From positions 1 through 34,014 of IMG/VR virus record IMGVR_UViG_3300048591_001067: a DNA stretch of 34,014 nt. The stretch is one strand, 5' to 3'. This document shows, piece after piece, positions 1,737 through 28,813 of the stretch (position 1 is its first letter; each line of letters starts with the position of its first letter). The notes under the pieces are model-generated. The model was not told where the DNA came from. It was given only the letters and a program-made list of their open reading frames with translations, and ran no database searches. A program made the translations under genes and the position numbers. This DNA comes from a virus.

Positions 1737-2528
1737 TTACCCAATCTGCCTATAGTCCTGCAGAATGTGTTTTGCGTGCGCAAGTGCAGAATCAAAATCT
1801 GCATACACAGCGAAAAAGTTATTTACACACTTTATTTGACCCTGCTCTCCCTTTAAATCAGGGATTGGCCAAATTTCGGAATCACGCGTAGTTAACCCAA
1901 CTGAAAACTCAGTTGTTTTACGAGAATCTGGGTGTATCATGAATCTGATACCAGCATCTCCAAATTCTTTCCAACCTTTTAGTGGATTAGATGCAGGGTT
2001 GTATAAAATACTACCATTCGCATAATGCGTCAGTGTTGGTAATATGTCTAAAGTTTCCTTAATCTCCCCAGCAAGCGTCAACATATGCTCAACTGTAGTA
2101 ACTGCAAACTCAAGTGCAGTTTTAAAATTAGGATAATTACGAATCAACCGATTAAATTCAGTTGGAACGATATCCCTTTGTTTAATCGCACTTACATCAA
2201 TCGCGGCCACTCTGCGAAAGAATGGTTCCAATACTACTGCTTGGTAATATGGCATATTGCGAGACACAAACTCTTCTAAAACCAGCCAATTAGAGCCAAG
2301 CAACTCTTTATTTTTGTCTTGGTGATGATCGTAATTGTTTAACAGAGGTTGATGACGTTCACCAACATCGACGATCCATACATTAGGATCATTGAATTCA
2401 TCCTCTGTGATTTCCCAACCACTTTTACGGATAATTTCATACTCATCAACATATACATGCTGAATTAGAGCAATTGCCAACAACTCGTCGGCATGAAACG
2501 CACCCGAATGCGTAATAATTTTCTTCAT
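1737..2528 (-). CDS. MYG1-like DHH-type metal-dependent phosphoesterase
   Basis: The 263-residue product matches the MYG1 (UPF0160) family. It starts MKKIITHSGAFHADE, the family's hallmark N-terminal metal-binding motif; VDVGERH near residue 55 and YDHHQ near residue 67 are the DHH-like metal ligands. MYG1 proteins are DHH-superfamily phosphoesterases, and eukaryotic members have been described as RNA exonucleases. Family members are usually about 300-350 residues, so this is a slightly short but apparently complete copy. As an accessory phage gene it could act in RNA or nucleotide turnover. It has its own terminator downstream and starts at a clear ATG (2528). The family call is firm; the substrate is unknown. 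Confidence 0.85.
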   Translation of the reverse strand: MKKIITHSGAFHADELLAIALIQHVYVDEYEIIRKSGWEITEDEFNDPNVWIVDVGERHQPLLNNYDHHQDKNKELLGSNWLVLEEFVSRNMPYYQAVVLEPFFRRVAAIDVSAIKQRDIVPTEFNRLIRNYPNFKTALEFAVTTVEHMLTLAGEIKETLDILPTLTHYANGSILYNPASNPLKGWKEFGDAGIRFMIHPDSRKTTEFSVGLTTRDSEIWPIPDLKGEQGQIKCVNNFFAVYADFDSALAHAKHILQDYRQIG

Positions 2529-10024: not shown

Positions 10025-10588
10025 CAAGATATCATCTAAAATTTCTAATTCGGATAATACAAATTTTTTGTTTTTTCCGAAGAATCGCTTAGGCCCTTTT
10101 TCATTAAAATCTGAAAGAACGCGATCTAGCTTATATTTGGGTATTTCTTCAGGATTTCTTTTTGCAATTGAGATACCCTCTTCTGAGTAGAATTTCACGA
10201 CTCTATGATCGTCACTATACCACTTTACGTAGGTGAGTCTATCTACAGTACCACGCTCAGGTAGTTTTAATACATCTAAAAATTTCATTCTAGATTTAGT
10301 ATAGTCTTTTATTAAAAGTGTGATGTTATCTTGAGTATGAACGGTTTCACCATAAAGAGGAAACGCGGCTCTATATACTATTCCAAATGCGAACACTTCT
10401 TTTAGTTTCTTCTTTTTAAAGTCTTTATTCAGTACCAATACAAGATCACCTGTTTCAAATTCGCTATAAGTTGTAACATAGTAATCATTCATCTTCATGT
10501 ATTGATTCTGTAATTTTATGATTTTCTGCCCCAAGGCTCGCATGGCTTTCTCAAATTCTTCAGGTGTGTGCTTGTCAGGATAAAACAT
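9989..10588 (-). CDS. Hypothetical protein, 199 aa
   Basis: This is an unrecognised protein of 199 residues if started at the ATG at 10588 (MFYPDKHTPEEFEKAMRALG). A longer frame opens at a TTG at 10609, but that codon is part of the TAAATTTG promoter box at 10614-10607 and so cannot be in the transcript. The product has a helical N-terminus, a central beta-rich part (for example DLVLVLNKDF, FGIVYRAAFPLYG) that could be a small barrel, and a charged helical C-terminus (ELEILDDILLELRDEEALAL). Confidence 0.75.
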   Translation of the reverse strand: MFYPDKHTPEEFEKAMRALGQKIIKLQNQYMKMNDYYVTTYSEFETGDLVLVLNKDFKKKKLKEVFAFGIVYRAAFPLYGETVHTQDNITLLIKDYTKSRMKFLDVLKLPERGTVDRLTYVKWYSDDHRVVKFYSEEGISIAKRNPEEIPKYKLDRVLSDFNEKGPKRFFGKNKKFVLSELEILDDILLELRDEEALAL

Positions 10589-24181: not shown

Positions 24182-24211
24182 TTGAAAGTTAAAAATTTTG
24201 TTTTATATTTG
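24182..24211 (+). promoter_or_regulatory. Promoter of tRNA cluster 1 (TTG-N19-TATATTTG)
   Basis: TTG at 24182-24184 and TATATTTG at 24204-24211 are 19 bp apart. The ATG of leader peptide 1 lies 4 nt after the box, so the transcript probably begins at the start codon. Confidence 0.9.
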
Positions 24212-24215
24212 CCGC

Positions 24216-24287
24216 ATGAAATCAATTAGCACATATACAAGTACGTTCGCAGCCTCTTATGAGGTGAAGTCGTATATACGTATCTGA
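24216..24287 (+). CDS. Leader peptide 1 of the tRNA attenuator (23 aa)
   Basis: This tiny frame has its own consensus promoter and a stop codon (24285-24287) placed inside attenuator segment 2. Residues 5-20 read STYTSTFAASYEVKSY; 15 of these 16 are Thr, Ala, Val, Ser, Tyr, Lys or Glu, exactly the amino acids of the eight tRNAs that follow (Thr, Ala, Val, Ser-UGA, Tyr, Lys, Glu, Ser-GCU). Both serine codon families (TCN and AGY) are used and both tRNAs-Ser are present. In the whole peptide 17 of 22 residues after Met match. The peptide itself probably has no function; its translation is the signal. Confidence 0.85.
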   Translation: MKSISTYTSTFAASYEVKSYIRI

Positions 24288-24341
24288 GGCTGCCTGTATA
24301 TACTTTCGCAAATAAGCCTCAGAAGTATCTGGGGCTTTTTT
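24249..24341 (+). promoter_or_regulatory. Four-segment transcription attenuator of tRNA cluster 1
   Basis: Segment 1 (GCAGCCTC, 24249-24256) is complementary to segment 2 (GAGGCTGC, 24286-24293). Segment 2 (TCTGAGGCT, 24283-24291) is also perfectly complementary to segment 3 (AGCCTCAGA, 24315-24323). Segment 3 pairs with segment 4 (TCTGGGGCT, 24328-24336) to make a terminator. This is the 1:2, 2:3, 3:4 logic of trp-type attenuators, with segments 1 and 2 in or at the end of the leader ORF. Confidence 0.85.
24314..24341 (+). terminator. Attenuator terminator hairpin (3:4), cluster 1
   Basis: AAGCCTCAGA pairs with TCTGGGGCTT (ten pairs, one U-G) around AGTA and is followed by T. It lies between the leader peptide and tRNA-Thr. 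Confidence 0.9.
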
Positions 24342-24367
24342 ATTGTTCATTGAAAATTTTAATTTAT

Positions 24368-24439
24368 GGCCGAATAGTTAAAGTGGAATAATGCTAGTTT
24401 TGTAAACTTGAGTTAAAGGTTCGATTCCTTTTTTGGCCT
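24368..24439 (+). tRNA. tRNA-Thr (TGT)
   Basis: Acceptor GGCCGAA pairs with TTTGGCC, the anticodon loop is TTTGTAA (anticodon TGT, reads ACA) and the T-loop is TTCGATT. CCA is not encoded. It is the first tRNA of cluster 1. Confidence 0.9.
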
Positions 24440-24460
24440 CAAAGTTGTTCTAAATAATAT

Positions 24461-24534
24461 GGGCCATTGGTGAAGCTGGCTATCACACCACTCTTGCAAA
24501 GTGGAGTCCTCGGTTCGAAGCCGAAATGTGTCCA
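24461..24534 (+). tRNA. tRNA-Ala (TGC) with a bulged acceptor stem
   Basis: The anticodon loop is CTTGCAA in a perfect CCACT/AGTGG stem, and the T-loop is TTCGAAG. The acceptor GGGCCAT pairs with ATG and GTCC only if the T at 24529 is bulged out. In that alignment the alanine identity pair G3-U70 and A73 are kept. An insertion or sequencing error are the alternatives. Confidence 0.8.
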
Positions 24535-24586
24535 CAAAAAGTAGTTACAAGTCAACACTTAATGACACAAGTGAAAATGTAACTGC

Positions 24587-24703
24587 TGCACTTAAAAACA
24601 GGGTAGGAGCAGCAGACCCGAAGATATATGGAGCAGTTAAAAGCTGCAAACACCTCTGCACGGTGTGATGTTTGAAAAAGCCATTTATCCGTTTTTAAGT
24701 GCA
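24587..24703 (+). ncRNA. Structured RNA segment between tRNA-Ala and tRNA-Val
   Basis: TGCACTTAAAAAC (24587-24599) and GTTTTTAAGTGCA (24691-24703) form a perfect 13-bp stem enclosing about 90 nt with further hairpins (GGGT/ACCC, GCAG/CTGC, and AAACA-CACC/GGTG-TGTTT). It has no T-loop or anticodon arm and no ORF. It would be excised with the tRNAs as a stable RNA. No known family is recognised. Confidence 0.6.
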
Positions 24704-24711
24704 AAATATAT

Positions 24712-24784
24712 ACGAGGTTCGTCTAGCGGCTAAGGCTTTTGGATTACAACCAAATAATCACAGGTTCGAGTCCTGTACCTCGTA
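24712..24784 (+). tRNA. tRNA-Val (TAC)
   Basis: Acceptor ACGAGGT/ACCTCGT is perfect, the anticodon loop is ATTACAA in a TTTGG/CCAAA stem (anticodon TAC) and the T-arm is ACAGG-TTCGAGT-CCTGT. Confidence 0.93.
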
Positions 24785-24861
24785 CAAAAGGATTGTGAGA
24801 CTCCGTTATGAGGCGGCATTTAAGGGTTGGCAGCTAAAACTCACTTAAACTAACCCTATCT
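24785..24861 (+). other. Spacer with interleaved complementary segments
   Basis: GTGAG (24795-24799) can pair with CTCAC (24840-24844), and AGGGTT (24823-24828) with AACCCT (24852-24857). The pairs interleave, which would make a pseudoknot. TTTAAG/CTTAAA is a competing pair. The segment lies between tRNA-Val and tRNA-Ser, with no tRNA features and no ORF. Confidence 0.4.
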
Positions 24862-24948
24862 GGAAAGACAAGCCAATAGCCGGTGGCCGCGCACTTGAAA
24901 TGCGTTAGGAGTTAATGACTCGTGGGGGTTGGATTCCCTCTCTTTCCG
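24862..24948 (+). tRNA. tRNA-Ser (TGA)
   Basis: Acceptor GGAAAGA/TCTTTCC, anticodon loop CTTGAAA (TGA, reads TCA) and a long variable arm as expected for Ser. The T-loop is TTGGATT, with G instead of the near-invariant C56, which should weaken the D-loop/T-loop contact. Confidence 0.9.
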
Positions 24949-24956
24949 CATAATAA

Positions 24957-25028
24957 GGGATAATGCCCAGGGCAGGTGAGACGGTCTGTAAAACCGAACT
25001 TCATGGACTTCGAGTGTCCTCTATCCCA
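24957..25028 (+). tRNA. tRNA-Tyr (GTA)
   Basis: Acceptor GGGATAA pairs with CTATCCC with a mismatch at the last pair; the anticodon loop is CTGTAAA (GTA) and the T-loop TTCGAGT. The variable region is short, unlike the long arm of typical bacterial tRNA-Tyr. Confidence 0.88.
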
Positions 25029-25042
25029 CTAATACGAATACT

Positions 25043-25189
25043 ATGAAAGTAAAAGTATGTACATGTAAACAGTGCAAAGGCTCTAAGGCTAACAAGAGTT
25101 CTAGCTTTAGAAAATTTTGGAAAAGATTAACGAACAAGAAAAGAAGAAAAGGTAATAACGATAAAATATTCAATTTATATTATGCTTGA
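25043..25189 (+). CDS. Small basic Cys-containing protein inside the tRNA array (48 aa)
   Basis: This 48-residue frame lies between tRNA-Tyr and tRNA-Lys. It begins MKVKVCTCKQCKGSK, with a C-x-C-x2-C cluster, continues with a strongly basic stretch (FRKFWKRLTNKKRRK, about residues 22-36) and ends in an aromatic tail (IFNLYYA). The composition points to a small zinc-binding or RNA/ribosome-binding protein. It has no own promoter in view and would be co-transcribed with cluster 1, thus under the same attenuator. Function is unknown; a role at the ribosome or on tRNA is only a guess from context. Confidence 0.65.
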   Translation: MKVKVCTCKQCKGSKANKSSSFRKFWKRLTNKKRRKGNNDKIFNLYYA

Positions 25190-25205
25190 AGTAGACAAGA
25201 TAACC

Positions 25206-25278
25206 GCCTTCAAAACATTGTTGGCGGATGTACCAGACTTTTAATCTGGGAAGCTGAGTTCGACTCTCAGTGGAGGCA
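25206..25278 (+). tRNA. tRNA-Lys (TTT)
   Basis: Acceptor GCCTTCA/TGGAGGC, anticodon loop CTTTTAA in a CCAGA/TCTGG stem, T-arm GCTGAG-type with loop TTCGACT. All arms are regular. Confidence 0.92.
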
Positions 25279-25290
25279 CAAAAATATAAC

Positions 25291-25365
25291 GCTCGGTTAG
25301 AATAGTTGGTCAAATTCGTATGCCTTTCACGCATAAGATCATGGGTTCAAATCCCATACCGAGTA
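25291..25365 (+). tRNA. tRNA-Glu (TTC)
   Basis: Acceptor GCTCGGT/ACCGAGT, anticodon loop CTTTCAC in a TATGC/GCATA stem and T-arm ATGGG-TTCAAAT-CCCAT. Confidence 0.92.
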
Positions 25366-25370
25366 CAAAA

Positions 25371-25454
25371 GGAAGATAAAATAGTTGGGTGACTATACCT
25401 GTTTGCTAAACAGTGGGTTCTTAAAAGAATGGGTTTCGAATACTCTGTCTTCCG
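25371..25454 (+). tRNA. tRNA-Ser (GCT)
   Basis: Acceptor GGAAGAT/GTCTTCC, anticodon loop TTGCTAA (GCT, reads AGC/AGT), a long variable arm and T-loop TTCGAAT. It is the last tRNA of cluster 1; its 3' end abuts the stop codon of the convergent HAD gene, and a CTTTTTATT run follows. Confidence 0.9.
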
Positions 25455-25838
25455 CTACTTTTTATTAAACAGGCCTTCTTTTTGAAGAAGGAATTCTATA
25501 TGATTCCAATCTACATAAGGTCTCTCAGAAACTTCTTTATTAAAAATTAAAGGTACACCAAGTGCCGCATCATCTATATATAGATTTGCATATGGTTTTG
25601 GGCTAGAAGTCCAAGTGTGCTGTGTAGGATTTTGATTAATTCCGAACAACGGGATCTCTAATTCCTTAAACCAGTTTACAGCATCATCTAAACCTTCCCC
25701 AGAACGCATTGTATGTAAAATTAATTGATGACCAGATTCAACAAGTCTCCGAAGCACCCAAGGCGCTCCTATTGGGGTTCCTATTTGCGGGAATTCATGA
25801 CTTACACAAGTTCCATCAAAATCTACAGCTATTATCAT
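25455..25838 (-). CDS. HAD-superfamily phosphatase-like protein
   Basis: The 127-residue product starts MIIAVDFDGTCVSHEFPQIG, the HAD nucleophile motif D-x-D-G-T (D6, D8). HTMRSGEGLDDAVNWF (about 42-57) carries the second-motif Thr and following Arg/Ser, and LYIDDAALGVP (about 91-101) is the acidic last motif. It has no room for a cap domain. Small cap-less HAD proteins of this type are common in Bacteroidota genomes and phages. It is encoded against the tRNA genes, between clusters 1 and 2, with its own TAAATTTG box 16 bp upstream. A 3'-phosphatase role in RNA repair (as in T4 Pnkp) is possible but unproven. Confidence 0.85.
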   Translation of the reverse strand: MIIAVDFDGTCVSHEFPQIGTPIGAPWVLRRLVESGHQLILHTMRSGEGLDDAVNWFKELEIPLFGINQNPTQHTWTSSPKPYANLYIDDAALGVPLIFNKEVSERPYVDWNHIEFLLQKEGLFNKK

Positions 25839-25854
25839 ATCTTATAATTTTCTG

Positions 25855-25862
25855 CAAATTTA
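25855..25862 (-). promoter_or_regulatory. Bacteroidota -7 element (TAAATTTG), leftward
   Basis: It is read toward the HAD gene, 16 bp before its ATG, and is back to back with the cluster 2 promoter. Confidence 0.55.
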
Positions 25863-25872
25863 AAATTTTTTA

Positions 25873-25902
25873 TTGAAAACTTGAAAATAATTTCGATATT
25901 TG
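25873..25902 (+). promoter_or_regulatory. Promoter of tRNA cluster 2 (TTG-N19-GATATTTG)
   Basis: TTG at 25873-25875 and GATATTTG at 25895-25902 keep the 19-bp spacing seen elsewhere; only the first base of the -7 box departs from consensus. tRNA-Met begins 4 nt after the box. Confidence 0.75.
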
Positions 25903-25905
25903 CGC

Positions 25906-25979
25906 AGCGAAATGGAGAAGCGGTCTATCTCATTACCCTCATAAGGTAAACATCGGGGGTTCGAATCCCTCTTTCGCTA
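25906..25979 (+). tRNA. tRNA-Met (CAT)
   Basis: Acceptor AGCGAAA/TTTCGCT, anticodon loop CTCATAA in a TTACC/GGTAA stem, T-loop TTCGAAT. The A1-U72 pair and the lack of three G-C pairs in the anticodon stem argue against an initiator. It precedes leader 2 and so escapes the attenuator. Confidence 0.85.
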
Positions 25980-25993
25980 CAAAAATATAAAAA

Positions 25994-26062
25994 ATGAAAA
26001 AAGGATTACAACATGATTTTCGCTTTGATGGCCAGCTGCCGTTAAGTTCAATCATGGGGTAA
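25994..26062 (+). CDS. Leader peptide of tRNA cluster 2 (22 aa)
   Basis: This tiny frame begins 14 nt after tRNA-Met, with an A-rich initiation region. Residues 4-17 read GLQHDFRFDGQLPL: all 14 are amino acids of cluster 2 tRNAs (Gly, Leu, Gln, His, Asp, Phe, Arg, Pro), and an internal Met near the end matches tRNA-Met. Several codons are the direct cognates (GGA, TTA, CAA, CAT, GAT, TTT, CGC). The stop codon immediately follows the GGGG that forms the antiterminator. Over the whole peptide 16 of 21 residues after Met match. Confidence 0.85.
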   Translation: MKKGLQHDFRFDGQLPLSSIMG

Positions 26063-26117
26063 TGTGACTAGTTCATTTTGTTAAGCACAAAGCCCCTGCG
26101 AAAGTTGGGGCTTTTTT
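26053..26117 (+). promoter_or_regulatory. Transcription attenuator of tRNA cluster 2
   Basis: The end of the leader ORF plus its stop (26053-26066) can pair with 26086-26098: CA/TG, GGGG/CCCC, U-G, an AA/AA internal loop and TGTG/CACA. This competes with the terminator helix AAGCCCC/GGGGCTT (26090-26096 with 26107-26113). A ribosome reaching the stop would cover the left partner and allow termination. Confidence 0.75.
26090..26117 (+). terminator. Attenuator terminator hairpin, cluster 2
   Basis: AAGCCCC and GGGGCTT form a 7-bp stem followed by seven T, four bases before tRNA-Pro. Confidence 0.88.
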
Positions 26118-26121
26118 TATT

Positions 26122-26196
26122 AGGGTAATGGGCTAATTGGGAAGCCACTATCTTTGGGCGATAGGCATCATGTGAGTTCGAGTCTCGCTTACCCTA
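26122..26196 (+). tRNA. tRNA-Pro (TGG)
   Basis: Acceptor AGGGTAA/TTACCCT, anticodon loop TTTGGGC in a CTATC/GATAG stem, T-arm GTGAG-TTCGAGT-CTCGC. Confidence 0.92.
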
Positions 26197-26205
26197 CAAG
26201 TATTT

Positions 26206-26278
26206 TGCCCTGTGGTGTAATTGGCAACACGTCTGGTTTTGGTCCAGAAGAGTAAAGGTTCGAGACCTTTCGGGGTAA
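26206..26278 (+). tRNA. tRNA-Gln (TTG)
   Basis: Acceptor TGCCCTG/CGGGGTA with the U1-A72 pair common in tRNA-Gln, anticodon loop TTTTGGT in a TCTGG/CCAGA stem, T-arm AAAGG-TTCGAGA-CCTTT. Confidence 0.92.
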
Positions 26279-26298
26279 CAGAGTTCTTTGAAATTAAT

Positions 26299-26382
26299 GC
26301 CGATGTGGTGGAATAGGGATACACGCTACACTTAGGATGTAGTTTCAGAAATGGAATGCAGGTTCGATGCCTGTCATCGGCA
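26299..26382 (+). tRNA. tRNA-Leu (TAG)
   Basis: Acceptor GCCGATG/CATCGGC, anticodon loop CTTAGGA in a CTACA/TGTAG stem, a long variable arm and T-arm GCAGG-TTCGATG-CCTGT. Confidence 0.92.
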
Positions 26383-26416
26383 CTGTATTTACTTATTATA
26401 ATTTCGATTCTTTTTG

Positions 26417-26424
26417 TATATTTG
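26417..26424 (+). promoter_or_regulatory. Bacteroidota -7 element 4 nt before the HNH start
   Basis: TATATTTG is followed by CTTT and the ATG at 26429. This gives a probably leaderless HNH mRNA and a possible attenuator-independent entry to the distal cluster 2 tRNAs. Confidence 0.65.
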
Positions 26425-26428
26425 CTTT

Positions 26429-27013
26429 ATGAAAGTAAATTGTAACAATTGCAGGAAGGAGTTTGATAAACAGCCATCACAAGTAGAGAAAAGCAGTCAA
26501 CATTATTGCTCTAGAAGTTGTGCTGCTACTTTTAACAACAAAAAATTTCCTAAAAGGAAGAAAGAACCCAGAGTTTACAAATTTAAAAGTAAAATTGTAG
26601 GTAGAGTAGAAATTGAGTGCGCTAACTGCGGTAAAAAGTTAAGTAGACAGTTAGCTCAAGCGTCTAAGAGCACAAATTATTGTGACAGAAACTGTCAACA
26701 TGAACACTGGGATAGGAAGAAAATATATGCGTGGTTGCATGAAGGATTAATTGAGTACAGAACAAAGAATTACGGAATGCCGATGTATATTAAACGATAT
26801 GTACATGCAAGAGATAAAAATTGTGTAGAATGTGGCCAAACAAACGAATGGAATGGTAAGCCATTGTCTTTACACGTTGATCACATAGATGGCAGAGCTA
26901 GTAATAATCGTCCTGAAAATTTGAGATTATTATGCCCGCACTGCCACTCGCAGACAGAAAATTTTGGAAGTAAAAATAAAAATTCAGACAGAGATTATAA
27001 GATATGGAAGTAG
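26429..27013 (+). CDS. HNH endonuclease inside the tRNA array
   Basis: The 194-residue product has two N-terminal zinc ribbons (CNNCRKEF with HYCSRSCAATFNN, residues 4-34; CANCGKKL with NYCDRNCQHEH, about 72-97) and a C-terminal HNH core: CVECGQ, LHVDHIDGRASNN, RPENLRLLCPHCHSQT (about 135-184). The ATG at 26429 is chosen because a longer frame from a TTG at 26414 would include the promoter. It sits between tRNA-Leu(TAG) and tRNA-Leu(TAA), the typical setting of a free-standing homing endonuclease, and is a paralogue of the gene at 28271. Confidence 0.88.
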   Translation: MKVNCNNCRKEFDKQPSQVEKSSQHYCSRSCAATFNNKKFPKRKKEPRVYKFKSKIVGRVEIECANCGKKLSRQLAQASKSTNYCDRNCQHEHWDRKKIYAWLHEGLIEYRTKNYGMPMYIKRYVHARDKNCVECGQTNEWNGKPLSLHVDHIDGRASNNRPENLRLLCPHCHSQTENFGSKNKNSDRDYKIWK

Positions 27014-27035
27014 AAGGCAATTTATGCCGGGTCAA

Positions 27036-27109
27036 GCCCCGGTAGTCCAAAGGAAGAGACAACAAACTTAAAATTTGTACAGGTATCAGTTCGAATCTGA
27101 TCTGGGGTA
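27036..27109 (+). tRNA. tRNA-Leu (TAA), short variable region
   Basis: Acceptor GCCCCGG pairs with CTGGGGT with G-U pairs, anticodon loop CTTAAAA in an ACAAA/TTTGT stem (TAA, reads TTA), T-arm ATCAG-TTCGAAT-CTGAT. The variable region is short for a leucine tRNA. Confidence 0.87.
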
Positions 27110-27125
27110 CTAATTAAATATATAA

Positions 27126-27198
27126 GGGATTATAGCTCAGTTGGTAGAGCGCAGCCCTGAAGAGGCTGGCGTCACTGGTTCAAATCCAGTTAATCCCA
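27126..27198 (+). tRNA. tRNA-Phe (GAA)
   Basis: Acceptor GGGATTA/TAATCCC, D-arm AGCTCAGTTGGTAGAGC, anticodon loop CTGAAGA in a CAGCC/GGCTG stem, T-arm ACTGG-TTCAAAT-CCAGT. Confidence 0.95.
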
Positions 27199-27207
27199 CA
27201 ATAAACT

Positions 27208-27279
27208 GGTTTGCGTAGTGTAATGGTTAGCACGTTACCCTGTCACGGTAATAGAGGGGTTCAAGTCCCACGCAGACCG
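27208..27279 (+). tRNA. tRNA-Asp (GTC)
   Basis: Acceptor GGTTTGC/GCAGACC with discriminator G, anticodon loop CTGTCAC in a TTACC/GGTAA stem, T-loop TTCAAGT. Two T-stem pairs are mismatched. Confidence 0.9.
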
Positions 27280-27290
27280 CAGTTTTATAT

Positions 27291-27363
27291 GGTGTTATTC
27301 GTCCAATGGTTAGGACGCAGTTTTGTGGTAGCTGAGATGACAGTTCGATTCTGTTATAACACC
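27291..27363 (+). tRNA. tRNA-His (GTG)
   Basis: GTGTTAT/ATAACAC acceptor preceded by the extra G-1 opposite C73, the histidine identity element. The anticodon loop is TTGTGGT in a CAGTT/AGCTG stem and the T-loop TTCGATT. Confidence 0.92.
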
Positions 27364-27367
27364 CAAA

Positions 27368-27441
27368 GAGTAAATTAACCTGTCATGAATTCAGTAGTCC
27401 TCCCCAAAAGTACATGATTAATGGAGGCGGTTAATTTACTC
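27368..27441 (+). ncRNA. Structured RNA segment between tRNA-His and tRNA-Gly
   Basis: GAGTAAATTAACC (27368-27380) and GGTTAATTTACTC (27429-27441) form a perfect 13-bp stem around 48 nt containing a further CCTCC/GGAGG pairing. No ORF or tRNA features are seen. The overall plan resembles the segment at 24587-24703, although the sequences differ. Confidence 0.6.
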
Positions 27442-27448
27442 CTTATTT

Positions 27449-27522
27449 GCAGGTAACGCATAAAGGGTGGTGCGCCAGTCTTCCAAACTGGAAAAGAGCC
27501 GGTTCGATCCCGGCTACCTGCT
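27449..27522 (+). tRNA. tRNA-Gly (TCC)
   Basis: Acceptor GCAGGTA/TACCTGC, anticodon loop CTTCCAA in a CCAGT/ACTGG stem, T-arm GCCGG-TTCGATC-CCGGC. Confidence 0.93.
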
Positions 27523-27529
27523 CAATTAA

Positions 27530-27609
27530 GGGGATGTAGCCGCCCTGCACTACGGATGCAGTAAGCGTAATTGGAGCTGTAAATGTTGGTTCGAATCCAA
27601 TCTTCCTCT
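27530..27609 (+). tRNA. tRNA-Arg (ACG) with abnormal D-arm position
   Basis: Acceptor GGGGATG pairs with CTTCCTC with one mismatch, the T-arm is GTTGG-TTCGAAT-CCAAT, and CTGCA-CTACGGA-TGCAG is a perfect anticodon arm for ACG. Only 8 nt separate the acceptor from the anticodon arm, so there is no room for a D-arm, while the 23-nt variable region contains AGC-GTAATTGGA-GCT, which looks like a D-arm. Confidence 0.65.
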
Positions 27610-27623
27610 CAATTTTTTTTATG

Positions 27624-27644
27624 ATACTTTCAAAAGTATTTTTT
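27624..27644 (+). terminator. Palindrome plus T-run before the cluster 3 promoter
   Basis: ATACTTT-CA-AAAGTAT is a perfect inverted repeat followed by five T. It may terminate cluster 2, or act as an operator, since it lies directly before the TATATTTG box of cluster 3. Confidence 0.5.
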
Positions 27645-27651
27645 ATATTTG
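27644..27651 (+). promoter_or_regulatory. Promoter of tRNA cluster 3 (TATATTTG)
   Basis: TATATTTG is followed by CGCC and the ATG of leader peptide 3, the same 4-nt spacing as cluster 1. The -33 part is weak. Confidence 0.8.
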
Positions 27652-27655
27652 CGCC

Positions 27656-27736
27656 ATGCAATCAAGGAGAAACAACAACATTAGAATTAATTCAATTTGT
27701 ATAAATTGGAGAAATAAGCTATTGGGGTTGTCTTGA
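27656..27736 (+). CDS. Leader peptide of tRNA cluster 3 (26 aa)
   Basis: This tiny frame starts 4 nt after a consensus -7 box. Residues 4-20 read RRNNNIRINSICINWRN: six Asn, four Ile, four Arg and one Trp, 15 of 17 matching the five cluster 3 tRNAs (Asn, Trp, CAU, Ile, Arg-UCU). Arginine is encoded only by AGA/AGG, as read by the UCU anticodon, never by CGN, and one Ile codon is ATA, as read by a lysidine-type CAU tRNA. The remaining Ser and Cys have no tRNA in this cluster. The stop codon lies just after the antiterminator segment. Confidence 0.85.
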   Translation: MQSRRNNNIRINSICINWRNKLLGLS

Positions 27737-27789
27737 GTGCAAAAAGTATTTATACTTAATCAACCCCTCCAGAAATGAAGGGGTTTTTT
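27724..27789 (+). promoter_or_regulatory. Transcription attenuator of tRNA cluster 3
   Basis: GGGGTTG (27724-27730, inside the last leader codons) is complementary to CAACCCC (27761-27767). The same CAACCCCT also forms the left arm of the terminator with AGGGGTT (27779-27785). A small AAGTA-TTTA-TACTT hairpin lies between them. The two helices exclude each other. Confidence 0.82.
27762..27789 (+). terminator. Attenuator terminator hairpin, cluster 3
   Basis: AACCCCT and AGGGGTT form a 7-bp stem followed by six T, seven bases before tRNA-Asn. Confidence 0.9.
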
Positions 27790-27795
27790 ATTTTT

Positions 27796-27867
27796 GGTTC
27801 TATCGTATAAGGGTTATTACGTGTGGCTGTTAACCACTTTATCTAGGTTCGATTCCTAGTGGAACCG
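27796..27867 (+). tRNA. tRNA-Asn (GTT)
   Basis: Acceptor GGTTCTA/TGGAACC with discriminator G, anticodon loop CTGTTAA, T-arm CTAGG-TTCGATT-CCTAG. Confidence 0.93.
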
Positions 27868-27873
27868 CAAAAT

Positions 27874-27945
27874 ACGTCTGTCGTACAACGGCTAGTACTC
27901 TGGTCTCCAAAATCAGCTACGAGGGTTCGAATCCTTCCAGACGTG
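27874..27945 (+). tRNA. tRNA-Trp (CCA)
   Basis: Acceptor ACGTCTG/CAGACGT with discriminator G, anticodon loop CTCCAAA in a CTGGT/ATCAG stem, T-loop TTCGAAT. Confidence 0.92.
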
Positions 27946-27950
27946 CAATT

Positions 27951-28023
27951 TGGCCTTTATCTTAATTGGTAGAGAATCATGCTCATAACATGGGATGTGT
28001 CGGTTCAACTCCGACAAGGCCAA
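27951..28023 (+). tRNA. tRNA with CAT anticodon, probably Ile2 (reads AUA)
   Basis: Acceptor TGGCCTT/AAGGCCA, anticodon loop CTCATAA, T-arm GTCGG-TTCAACT-CCGAC. It is a second CAT tRNA after the one at 25906. Its place next to tRNA-Ile(GAT), and a leader with an ATA codon but no internal Met, favour a lysidine-modified tRNA-Ile over tRNA-Met. Confidence 0.75.
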
Positions 28024-28029
28024 CTATAC

Positions 28030-28102
28030 TGGGCTGTAGCTTAATCGGGAAAGCATGTCGCTGATATCGACAAGAGAGTGGGATCGTAACCCGCCAGTCC
28101 AA
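28030..28102 (+). tRNA. tRNA-Ile (GAT)
   Basis: Acceptor TGGGCTG/CAGTCCA, anticodon loop CTGATAT in a TGTCG/CGACA stem. The T-loop is ATCGTAA, with A in place of the near-invariant T54. Confidence 0.88.
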
Positions 28103-28109
28103 CTATTTT

Positions 28110-28180
28110 GCCCTCATGATGTAATGGATGCATCTGAATCTTCTAAATTCATCGTATCGGTTCGACTCCGATTGAGGGTA
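28110..28180 (+). tRNA. tRNA-Arg (TCT)
   Basis: Acceptor GCCCTCA/TGAGGGT, anticodon loop CTTCTAA in a TGAAT/ATTCA stem, T-arm ATCGG-TTCGACT-CCGAT. CCA follows directly, unlike in the other tRNAs, and may be chance. It is the last tRNA of the array. Confidence 0.9.
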
Positions 28181-28270
28181 CCAATGACCACATACCCAAT
28201 GTTGGCAGCGGGGTTGAAATTTAGACAGAATTAAAAAATAATTTCTATTATTAGTTTCAAATCCTAAATG

Positions 28271-28813
28271 ATGGAAGTGGTTTGTAAACAATGCTTTAAA
28301 AAGTTTAATAAAAAATTAAGCGAAATTGAAAAATTTCCTAATCATTTTTGTAGCCGTTCTTGTGCAGCTTCTTACAACAACAAAGCAACTCCAAAGAGAA
28401 GAAAAAGACCGCCTATTTTAAAAAACTGTTGTAATTGTGGTACAACTCTTAAGCGAGCGATAACGGCTGCTAGCTATTGTTCAACTGGGTGTGTTAGAGA
28501 AAAAAATTACAAGACATATTTGTTGAAATATTTTAGAGGGGAGGTTGATGGAACTGTTGGTTCTAACTACCAGCTAAATAAGTATGTGAAAAGGTATGTT
28601 TTAGAAAGAGATAAGAGTTGTGTTATTTGTGGTGTAAACAATTTCTGGCAAGGTAAAAAATTAACATTGCAAATTGACCATATAGACGGAGATGTTTCCA
28701 ACGCGAACTTAGATAACTTAAGAGTAGTTTGCCCTAATTGTCATTCGCAAACGCATACATATGGTTCTAAAAATAAGAACACTAAGAGGAAACGCTATCT
28801 CGGCAAGCTCTAA
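28271..28813 (+). CDS. HNH endonuclease, paralogue of the one in cluster 2
   Basis: The product is 180 residues from the ATG at 28271 (MEVVCKQCFKKFNKK); an ATG one codon earlier (28268) is possible. It shares every domain with the protein at 26429: zinc ribbons CKQC with HFCSRSCAASYNN and CCNCGTTL with SYCSTGC, then CVICGV, LQIDHIDGDVSN and NLDNLRVVCPNCHSQT. It sits at the end of the tRNA array. Both copies look like free-standing homing endonucleases; the target sites cannot be read from the sequence. Confidence 0.87.
   Translation: MEVVCKQCFKKFNKKLSEIEKFPNHFCSRSCAASYNNKATPKRRKRPPILKNCCNCGTTLKRAITAASYCSTGCVREKNYKTYLLKYFRGEVDGTVGSNYQLNKYVKRYVLERDKSCVICGVNNFWQGKKLTLQIDHIDGDVSNANLDNLRVVCPNCHSQTHTYGSKNKNTKRKRYLGKL

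Follow-up and report, generated by a model that had tools for sequence, protein, structure and literature searches.

Organization of the three tRNA operons

The DNA analysed here, referred to as the window, is the whole 34,014-nucleotide IMG/VR virus record IMGVR_UViG_3300048591_001067, and its segment from 24.2 to 28.2 kb carries approximately 23 tRNA genes in three groups, each preceded by a putative attenuator. The order is the same at each group: an open reading frame (ORF) of 22-26 codons, 25-27 nucleotides (nt), an intrinsic terminator and a tRNA cluster. The three short ORFs, hereafter called leaders, have 23 codons (24216-24287), 22 codons (25994-26062) and 26 codons (27656-27736). All of the short ORFs, terminators and tRNA clusters were found where a first-pass annotation of this DNA had placed them. 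Features are on the plus strand unless noted otherwise.

Operon 1 begins with a Bacteroidota-type promoter at 24182-24211, read from the sequence as TTG (24182-24184), 19 nt and TATATTTG (24204-24211). The Bacteroidota promoter consensus is TTG..TAnnTTTG, and promoters were assigned by this consensus only. The ATG of leader 1 is located 4 nt after the TATATTTG box, and the mRNA of leader 1 is probably nearly leaderless. Leader 1, MKSISTYTSTFAASYEVKSYIRI, which like the other two leaders was taken from the ORF list, is followed by terminator 1 (24314-24342; arms 24314-24323 and 24328-24337, then a T-run) and by cluster 1 (24368-25454), which encodes Thr(UGU), Ala(UGC), Val(UAC), Ser(UGA), Tyr(GUA), Lys(UUU), Glu(UUC) and Ser(GCU) tRNAs. 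The Tyr gene at 24957 and the Ser(GCU) gene at 25371 were missed by ARAGORN and by the Rfam tRNA model, and both were recovered in a further tRNA search.

Upstream of leader 2 (25895-25980) are a promoter-like GATATTTG (25895-25902) and a tRNA(CAU) gene (25906-25980). As the locus reads, this tRNA gene is outside the control of leader 2, a point absent from the first-pass annotation. A tRNA(CAU) gene directly upstream of a second leader and outside the attenuator was also observed in the related contig L054, on the minus strand near 10480. Leader 2, MKKGLQHDFRFDGQLPLSSIMG, precedes terminator 2 (26090-26118; arms 26090-26113, AAGCCCCTGCGAAAGTTGGGGCTT and a T-run) and cluster 2 (26122-27610), which contains Pro(UGG), Gln(UUG), Leu(UAG), an HNH gene (26432-27013), Leu(UAA), Phe, Asp, His and Gly(UCC). 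The sequence at ~27528-27610 escaped both ARAGORN and the Rfam tRNA model. Its anticodon and T arms are visible by eye, but the D arm is odd and the variable region long, so it is only a probable tRNA-Arg(ACG) gene; it bears on one residue of leader 2.

The -7 box of the operon 3 promoter, TATATTTG at 27644-27651, is 4 nt ahead of the ATG and similar to that of promoter 1; the promoter 1 region (24189-24225) and the leader 3 promoter region (27629-27665) match at 81% over 37 nt. Leader 3, MQSRRNNNIRINSICINWRNKLLGLS, is followed by terminator 3 (27762-27790; arms 27762-27785) and by cluster 3 (27796-28183), with Asn, Trp, tRNA(CAU), Ile(GAU) and Arg(UCU).

Agreement between leader codons and tRNA content

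In order to compare leaders with clusters, the core of each leader was taken to run from codon 2 to the point where pairing with the 5' arm of the terminator begins, a boundary set by the RNA and not by eye. With this definition, 17/21, 14/19 and 15/20 core codons of leaders 1, 2 and 3 matched their own clusters (17/22, 15/21 and 15/25 for the whole ORFs), and the summed core match was 2.30 for the true arrangement and at most 1.16 for any alternative arrangement of leaders and clusters within the window. The first-pass annotation had claimed the same one-to-one assignment, which therefore stands, whereas its counts of 15/16, 14/14 and 15/17 depended on a core chosen by eye and are replaced by those given above. 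The seven amino acids served by cluster 1 (Thr, Ala, Val, Ser, Tyr, Lys and Glu) are all represented in leader 1, as are the eight of cluster 2 in leader 2. Leader 3 shares Asn, Ile, Trp and Arg with cluster 3, and all four of its Arg codons are AGA/AGG, as had been noted earlier, which agrees with tRNA-Arg(UCU); the isoacceptor rule extends to other leaders, as described below.

The major capsid protein of the window phage matched Pfam Crass_capsid (2.4e-16), and PHROG matches were obtained for the portal (9.7e-40) and the terminase (1.3e-34); by these matches the window is part of a distant crAss-like phage. Relatives were gathered by capsid searches of IMG/VR, and the tRNA regions of the matching contigs were then read. 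Searches of IMG/VR with the 241-amino-acid protein adjoining cluster 1 or with the terminase gave no relatives, and the genome collection yielded only one related contig, L108, inside a Sulfuricurvum metagenome-assembled genome. Leaders of cultured phages were located through their tRNA arrays. tblastn searches of cultured phages with leader peptides gave no match, which is expected if composition is kept rather than sequence. Altogether, 25 leaders were collected from environmental contigs and cultured flavophages, and the 20 non-orthologous ones among them represent eight phage groups.

Among the leaders of relatives, QHNAFYFQPMAF precedes Pro, Met, Ala, Tyr, His, Phe and Gln tRNAs; LRTLLERCLWLE precedes Glu, Leu, Leu, Leu, Trp, Cys and Arg(ACG) tRNAs; and SINTINNTGKVDSR precedes Arg(UCU), Lys, CAU, Gly, Asp, Asn, Ser, Ser, Thr and Val tRNAs. 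The leader DIATIVRVGGIDKISSGGTVAG, upstream of Ala, Lys, Ile, Gly, Met, Asp, Thr, Ser, Val and Arg(UCU), matched its cluster at 22/22 codons. Cellulophaga phages phi4:1, phi17:2 and phi38:1 have three leaders each and phi10:1 has one, while two were found in Calle_1 (seen by program) and two in Tenacibaculum phage Gundel_1. The T-runs of the phi4:1 leaders are near 87184, 88158 and 89915 of KC821632, and the corresponding stretches of phi38:1 (KC821614) are 35253-35420, 36744-36920 and 37987-38140. The phi10:1 core, WSYSCFSYSF, consists of exactly the five amino acids of its tRNAs (Tyr, Trp and Phe by program, Ser(UGA) and Cys by reading). According to their records, the cultured leader-bearing phages span Lightbulbvirus, Pervagoviridae, Assiduviridae and Pachyviridae. 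These comparisons indicate that leader-controlled tRNA clusters, as predicted from sequence, occur in several unrelated phage groups, including cultured phages of marine flavobacteria. Matches to a QHNAFY leader pattern in L063 and L064, where there are no tRNAs, were rejected as chance matches, and a doubtful candidate leader in MT835492 (L104) was left out of the count.

For the 20 non-orthologous leaders, the mean core match to the own cluster was 0.714, and 0.318±0.050 after re-pairing; none of 200,000 permutations reached the observed value. Whole ORFs gave 0.594 and 0.315, again with 0/200,000. When leaders were re-paired only within each phage, the true arrangement was the best of 31,104. 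The correspondence also holds in the opposite direction: the core contains all amino acids of the cluster in 15 of the 20 leaders, and the other five miss only Met, with a completeness score of 0.96 for own pairs and 0.47±0.07 for permuted pairs. Met is a natural exception because tRNA(CAU) may be an initiator or a reader of the Ile codon AUA. Arg codons followed the isoacceptor in 14/14 independent cases, CGN with Arg(ACG) in 6/6 and AGR with Arg(UCU) in 8/8 (Fisher p=3e-4). These results bear out the earlier proposal that the sensed set equals the encoded tRNA set; leader composition tracks tRNA content across phages, and a change independent of it, which would have counted against the proposal, was seen only in two eroded clusters (L023B and L035).

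The short ORFs are also kept in related phages, as an architecture: an ORF, a stop codon, 21-32 nt to the terminator arm, the terminator and tRNAs were found in this order in 23 of the 25 cases, while the peptides diverge. In phi4:1, phi38:1 and L102, which have their tRNA sets in common, leaders A and B are alike at only 3-6 of approximately 15 residues; leader C is more similar, with 13/16 residues shared between phi4:1 and phi38:1. Leader composition is conserved here where peptide sequence diverges.

Leaders were also sought in IMG/VR with a DNA pattern for the promoter plus start codon, GTTNTATNTTTGCNNTATGAAAACAA, which is blind to leader composition. Eleven stretches were found, six with an ORF of <40 codons and five with a longer ORF. 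All six short ORFs, which represent five distinct leaders including that of Gundel_1 itself, were followed by a terminator 25-30 nt past the stop codon and then by tRNAs, and none of the five longer ORFs had tRNAs nearby. One leader of this set, RLHLEQLEQP, precedes Pro, Glu, Gln, His, Leu, Leu and Arg(ACG) and fits its cluster. With the exception of Gundel_1, leaders of this set were kept out of the permutation statistics.

Antiterminator pairing and proposed mechanism

In all leaders, a segment from approximately codon 17 to just past the stop codon, region 2, can pair with the 5' arm of the terminator. In leader 1, region 2 (24282-24292) overlaps the stop codon, and the predicted duplex has -16.2 kcal/mol (p=0.001 against dinucleotide shuffles; the fold of 24265-24326 was also computed). 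Region 2 of leader 2 (26055-26061) pairs with the 26090-26099 arm (GGGGU/GCCCC), with a duplex of -10.0 kcal/mol that is weak alone (p=0.32) and an antiterminator fold of 26050-26101 of -12.9 kcal/mol. In leader 3, region 2 is TTGGGGTTG (codons 23-25; 27722-27730), which pairs with CAACCCC in the 5' arm of the terminator (p=0.03 against shuffles; fold of 27716-27773 -17.2 kcal/mol, z -2.9). The competition between terminator and antiterminator described in the first-pass annotation is thus possible at all three leaders. Leaders 1 and 2 in addition have a region 1 able to pair with region 2, namely GCAGCCTC (24249-24256) as the alternative partner in leader 1 and CATGATT (26012-26018), which can pair with AATCATG (26050-26056), in leader 2.

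Taken as a set, the 20 leaders had better antiterminator pairing than dinucleotide shuffles (combined p=4e-16), and a comparison of the orthologues L027 and L052C shows CCGGAGGUU/AGCCUCUGG replaced by CCGGGGGUU/GGCCCUUGG, with both sides of the pairing changed. Nascent RNA was folded with the ribosome footprint masked at codon 8 or at the stop codon. The antiterminator formed with a mean probability of 0.71 when the footprint was at codon 8 and of 0.20 when it was at the stop codon, and the mean terminator pairing was 0.67 and 0.90, respectively.

The elements of an attenuator are therefore present: a short ORF that has a start codon, a stop codon and, by consensus, a promoter; regulatory codons that are cognate to its product, here a set of tRNAs; an intrinsic terminator before the structural genes; and an antiterminator that shares the 5' arm of the terminator and would be exposed on stalling, weak alone in three leaders and strong as a set. 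The ORF, its cognate codons, the terminator, the mutually exclusive pairing and the recurrence in unrelated phages can be demonstrated by sequence analysis, and they suggest, with a probability of about 0.9, that each tRNA operon opens with a ribosome-mediated attenuator which senses shortage of any charged tRNA in its set and switches those tRNA genes on. According to this model, RNA polymerase would start just before the short ORF (further upstream for leader 2), and the ribosome would translate a leader in which the first 15-20 codons are decoded by the tRNAs of the downstream cluster. If these charged tRNAs are all plentiful, the ribosome would reach the stop codon and cover or pass region 2, located at the end of the ORF, whereupon the terminator approximately 27 nt further on would fold and transcription would end ahead of the tRNA genes. 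If any one tRNA is scarce, the ribosome would stall upstream of region 2, which could then capture the 5' arm of the terminator, and the polymerase would continue into the tRNA genes. Since a stall at any cognate codon would expose region 2, the leader may act as an OR gate over the tRNA set that it controls, so that tRNAs would be made when those same tRNAs are missing. The reversed logic, in which stalling leads to termination, was rejected, because region 2 is located downstream of the sensing codons in all leaders.

Several observations weigh against this model. The clusters of L023B and L035 have lost most of their tRNAs, which their leaders still name (only Arg remains in L023B, and only Ala and Gln in L035, in which Pro is missing from both leader and cluster), and the leaders L054A and L054B include Thr and Gln codons for which their clusters encode no tRNA. 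These exceptions look like clusters in decay or rearrangement, and in L023B and L035 the leader would lag behind an eroded cluster. The first few leader codons (often MKT or MKK) and the region 2 codons do not match the clusters. Antiterminator pairing is weak alone in leader 2 of the window, in L102B (p=0.20) and in phi4B (p=0.69), and the ribosome modelled at the stop codon fails to block the antiterminator in 7 of 25 leaders. The arrays of T4, Myrna, crAss001 and DAC15 resemble that of the window in having many clustered tRNA genes, some with homing endonuclease genes between them, but no short cognate ORF plus terminator was found in front of them (T4 was judged from annotation only), and no leader was found before the array of PAU. 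Leaders are also lacking in several relatives, and the tRNA clusters of L025, L026, L029, L053, L057 and L103 have none. Phage tRNA arrays thus do not all follow the cognate-leader design.

A chance origin of the leaders might be considered, as small ORFs before terminators are common, the codon usage of an AT-rich phage favours matches, and 72 ORFs of at least 20 codons are present within 4.8 kb; with 0/200,000 permutations and a discovery set blind to composition, however, this explanation has a negligible probability and is counted as already refuted by the permutation tests. It is very improbable that the short ORFs are small genes whose peptides act in trans, with the tRNA match as a by-product. 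Some of them are indeed annotated as hypothetical proteins (gp075 of phi4:1; gp066 and gp071 of phi38:1), but the peptides diverge between phages with the same clusters while their composition is kept, the isoacceptor match is at the codon level, and the terminator geometry is near-constant.

Alternative explanations that accept the attenuators differ in the signal. Classical attenuators sense amino-acid supply, and uncharged and missing tRNAs look alike to a ribosome on the leader, so the signal might be amino-acid starvation or a general slowdown of translation, with the tRNAs as mere operon cargo. We consider this unlikely. Starvation is a poor fit as the purpose, because more tRNA supplies no amino acid and would give no relief of the shortage; the agreement between sensed set and tRNA set extends to the Arg isoacceptor, a precision for which amino-acid sensing has no need; and these phages distribute tRNAs for most, if not all, amino acids among two or three operons, each sensed separately. 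We infer instead from the leader sequences that translation, stalling and readthrough take place and are triggered by tRNA loss or by excess codon demand. The trigger may be codon demand during infection, or it may be that anticodon nucleases or RNA decay deplete the host tRNAs; the first-pass annotation had suggested tRNA cleavage or host shut-off as possible triggers. In the former case, the attenuator would be a demand sensor used at each infection, without an anti-defence role, the tRNA genes remaining off until the codon demand of the phage outruns the host pool. The switch and the sensors would be identical, and a phage with codon usage unlike that of its host would meet this situation in every infection; the trigger is the sole difference from a defence role, and we regard demand sensing as a serious possibility at somewhat less than even odds. 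In the latter case, which we propose with similar reserve, the two or three tRNA operons, each with a multi-tRNA sensor and jointly covering nearly all amino acids, would form a widespread phage surveillance circuit for inducible, piecewise replacement of a host tRNA pool destroyed, for example, by defence anticodon nucleases or by host RNA decay.

Comparison with known systems and other features of the locus

The trp, his, leu, thr and ilv leaders respond to one or a few amino acids and regulate the enzymes that make them. In these amino-acid biosynthesis attenuators, too, the regulatory codons lie in a short ORF, antiterminator and terminator exclude each other, and the terminator precedes the structural genes, a standard design described in PMC1183508. 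The phage leaders differ from them in controlling tRNA genes and in sensing 4-10 amino acids, the same set as that of the encoded tRNAs. E. coli pheM-pheST is similar in that shortage of a charged tRNA in the leader raises a component of tRNA charging; there the leader peptide controls phenylalanyl-tRNA synthetase in response to a single amino acid, and the output is the synthetase, not tRNA. T-box riboswitches also sense tRNA status and control transcription by antitermination, but they bind uncharged tRNA directly via a specifier loop and need no translation of a leader. No T-box family match was obtained in the window at E up to 1, and none of the Rfam Trp, His, Leu, Thr and Phe leaders scored above gathering, the only match being Phe_leader RF01859 at 27679-27791 (25.8 bits vs 55, E=0.38).

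The first-pass annotation knew of no described system of this design, and our literature search, to which preprints and most subscription journals were outside the scope, likewise yielded no account of tRNA genes under leader-peptide attenuation. In the paper on Calle and Gundel, tRNAs are counted, and the words leader and attenuation are not used (PMC8776804). As far as found, the putative switch is classical, and the tRNA output and the multi-tRNA, self-matching input are undescribed.

The leaders bear on the question of why phages carry large tRNA arrays and how the arrays are controlled, as they would spell out in phage codons which tRNA shortage each array answers. They may serve as natural tRNA sensors with several inputs, report tRNA depletion in infection directly and provide a sequence signature for finding more such systems. 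The model can be tested in existing laboratory pairs, such as Cellulophaga baltica with phi4:1, phi17:2, phi38:1 or phi10:1, and Tenacibaculum with Gundel_1. If the surveillance circuit proves true, these would be the first tRNA genes governed by their own decoding, and the counter-defence would sense the damage, not the weapon.

The phages phi4:1 (L114), phi38:1 (L119) and L102, which belong to different families, divide their tRNAs among three operons in the same way, Pro-Glu-Gln-His-Leu-Arg(CGN), Ala-Lys-Ile-Gly-Met-Asp-Thr-Val-Arg(AGR) and Tyr-Ser-Asn-Trp-Phe-Cys, which resembles a split by the first codon base. In L053 (G027; 890-2690) and L057, which have no leaders, many tRNA genes seem broken up or rearranged and contain repeated segments similar to CTTAGAAAA.

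HNH endonuclease genes are located between or after the tRNA genes of the window (26432-27013 and 28268-28813), the former with its own TATATTTG-type promoter, and HNH-like genes also break up the tRNA arrays of L054 and Gundel_1. The tRNA region further includes an opposite-strand gene (25455-25838, minus strand) with a match to PHROG 1238, annotated as phosphoheptose isomerase (E 6.7e-31), and the product of a gene outside this region (1737-2528, minus strand) includes the N-terminal part characteristic of MYG1 exonucleases (Pfam PF03690, 8.2e-13). Long inverted repeats were observed in tRNA spacers of the window at 24534-24711 and 27365-27448 (e.g. GAGTAAATTAACC..GGTTAATTTACTC), and similar spacer hairpins are present in relatives (L023).

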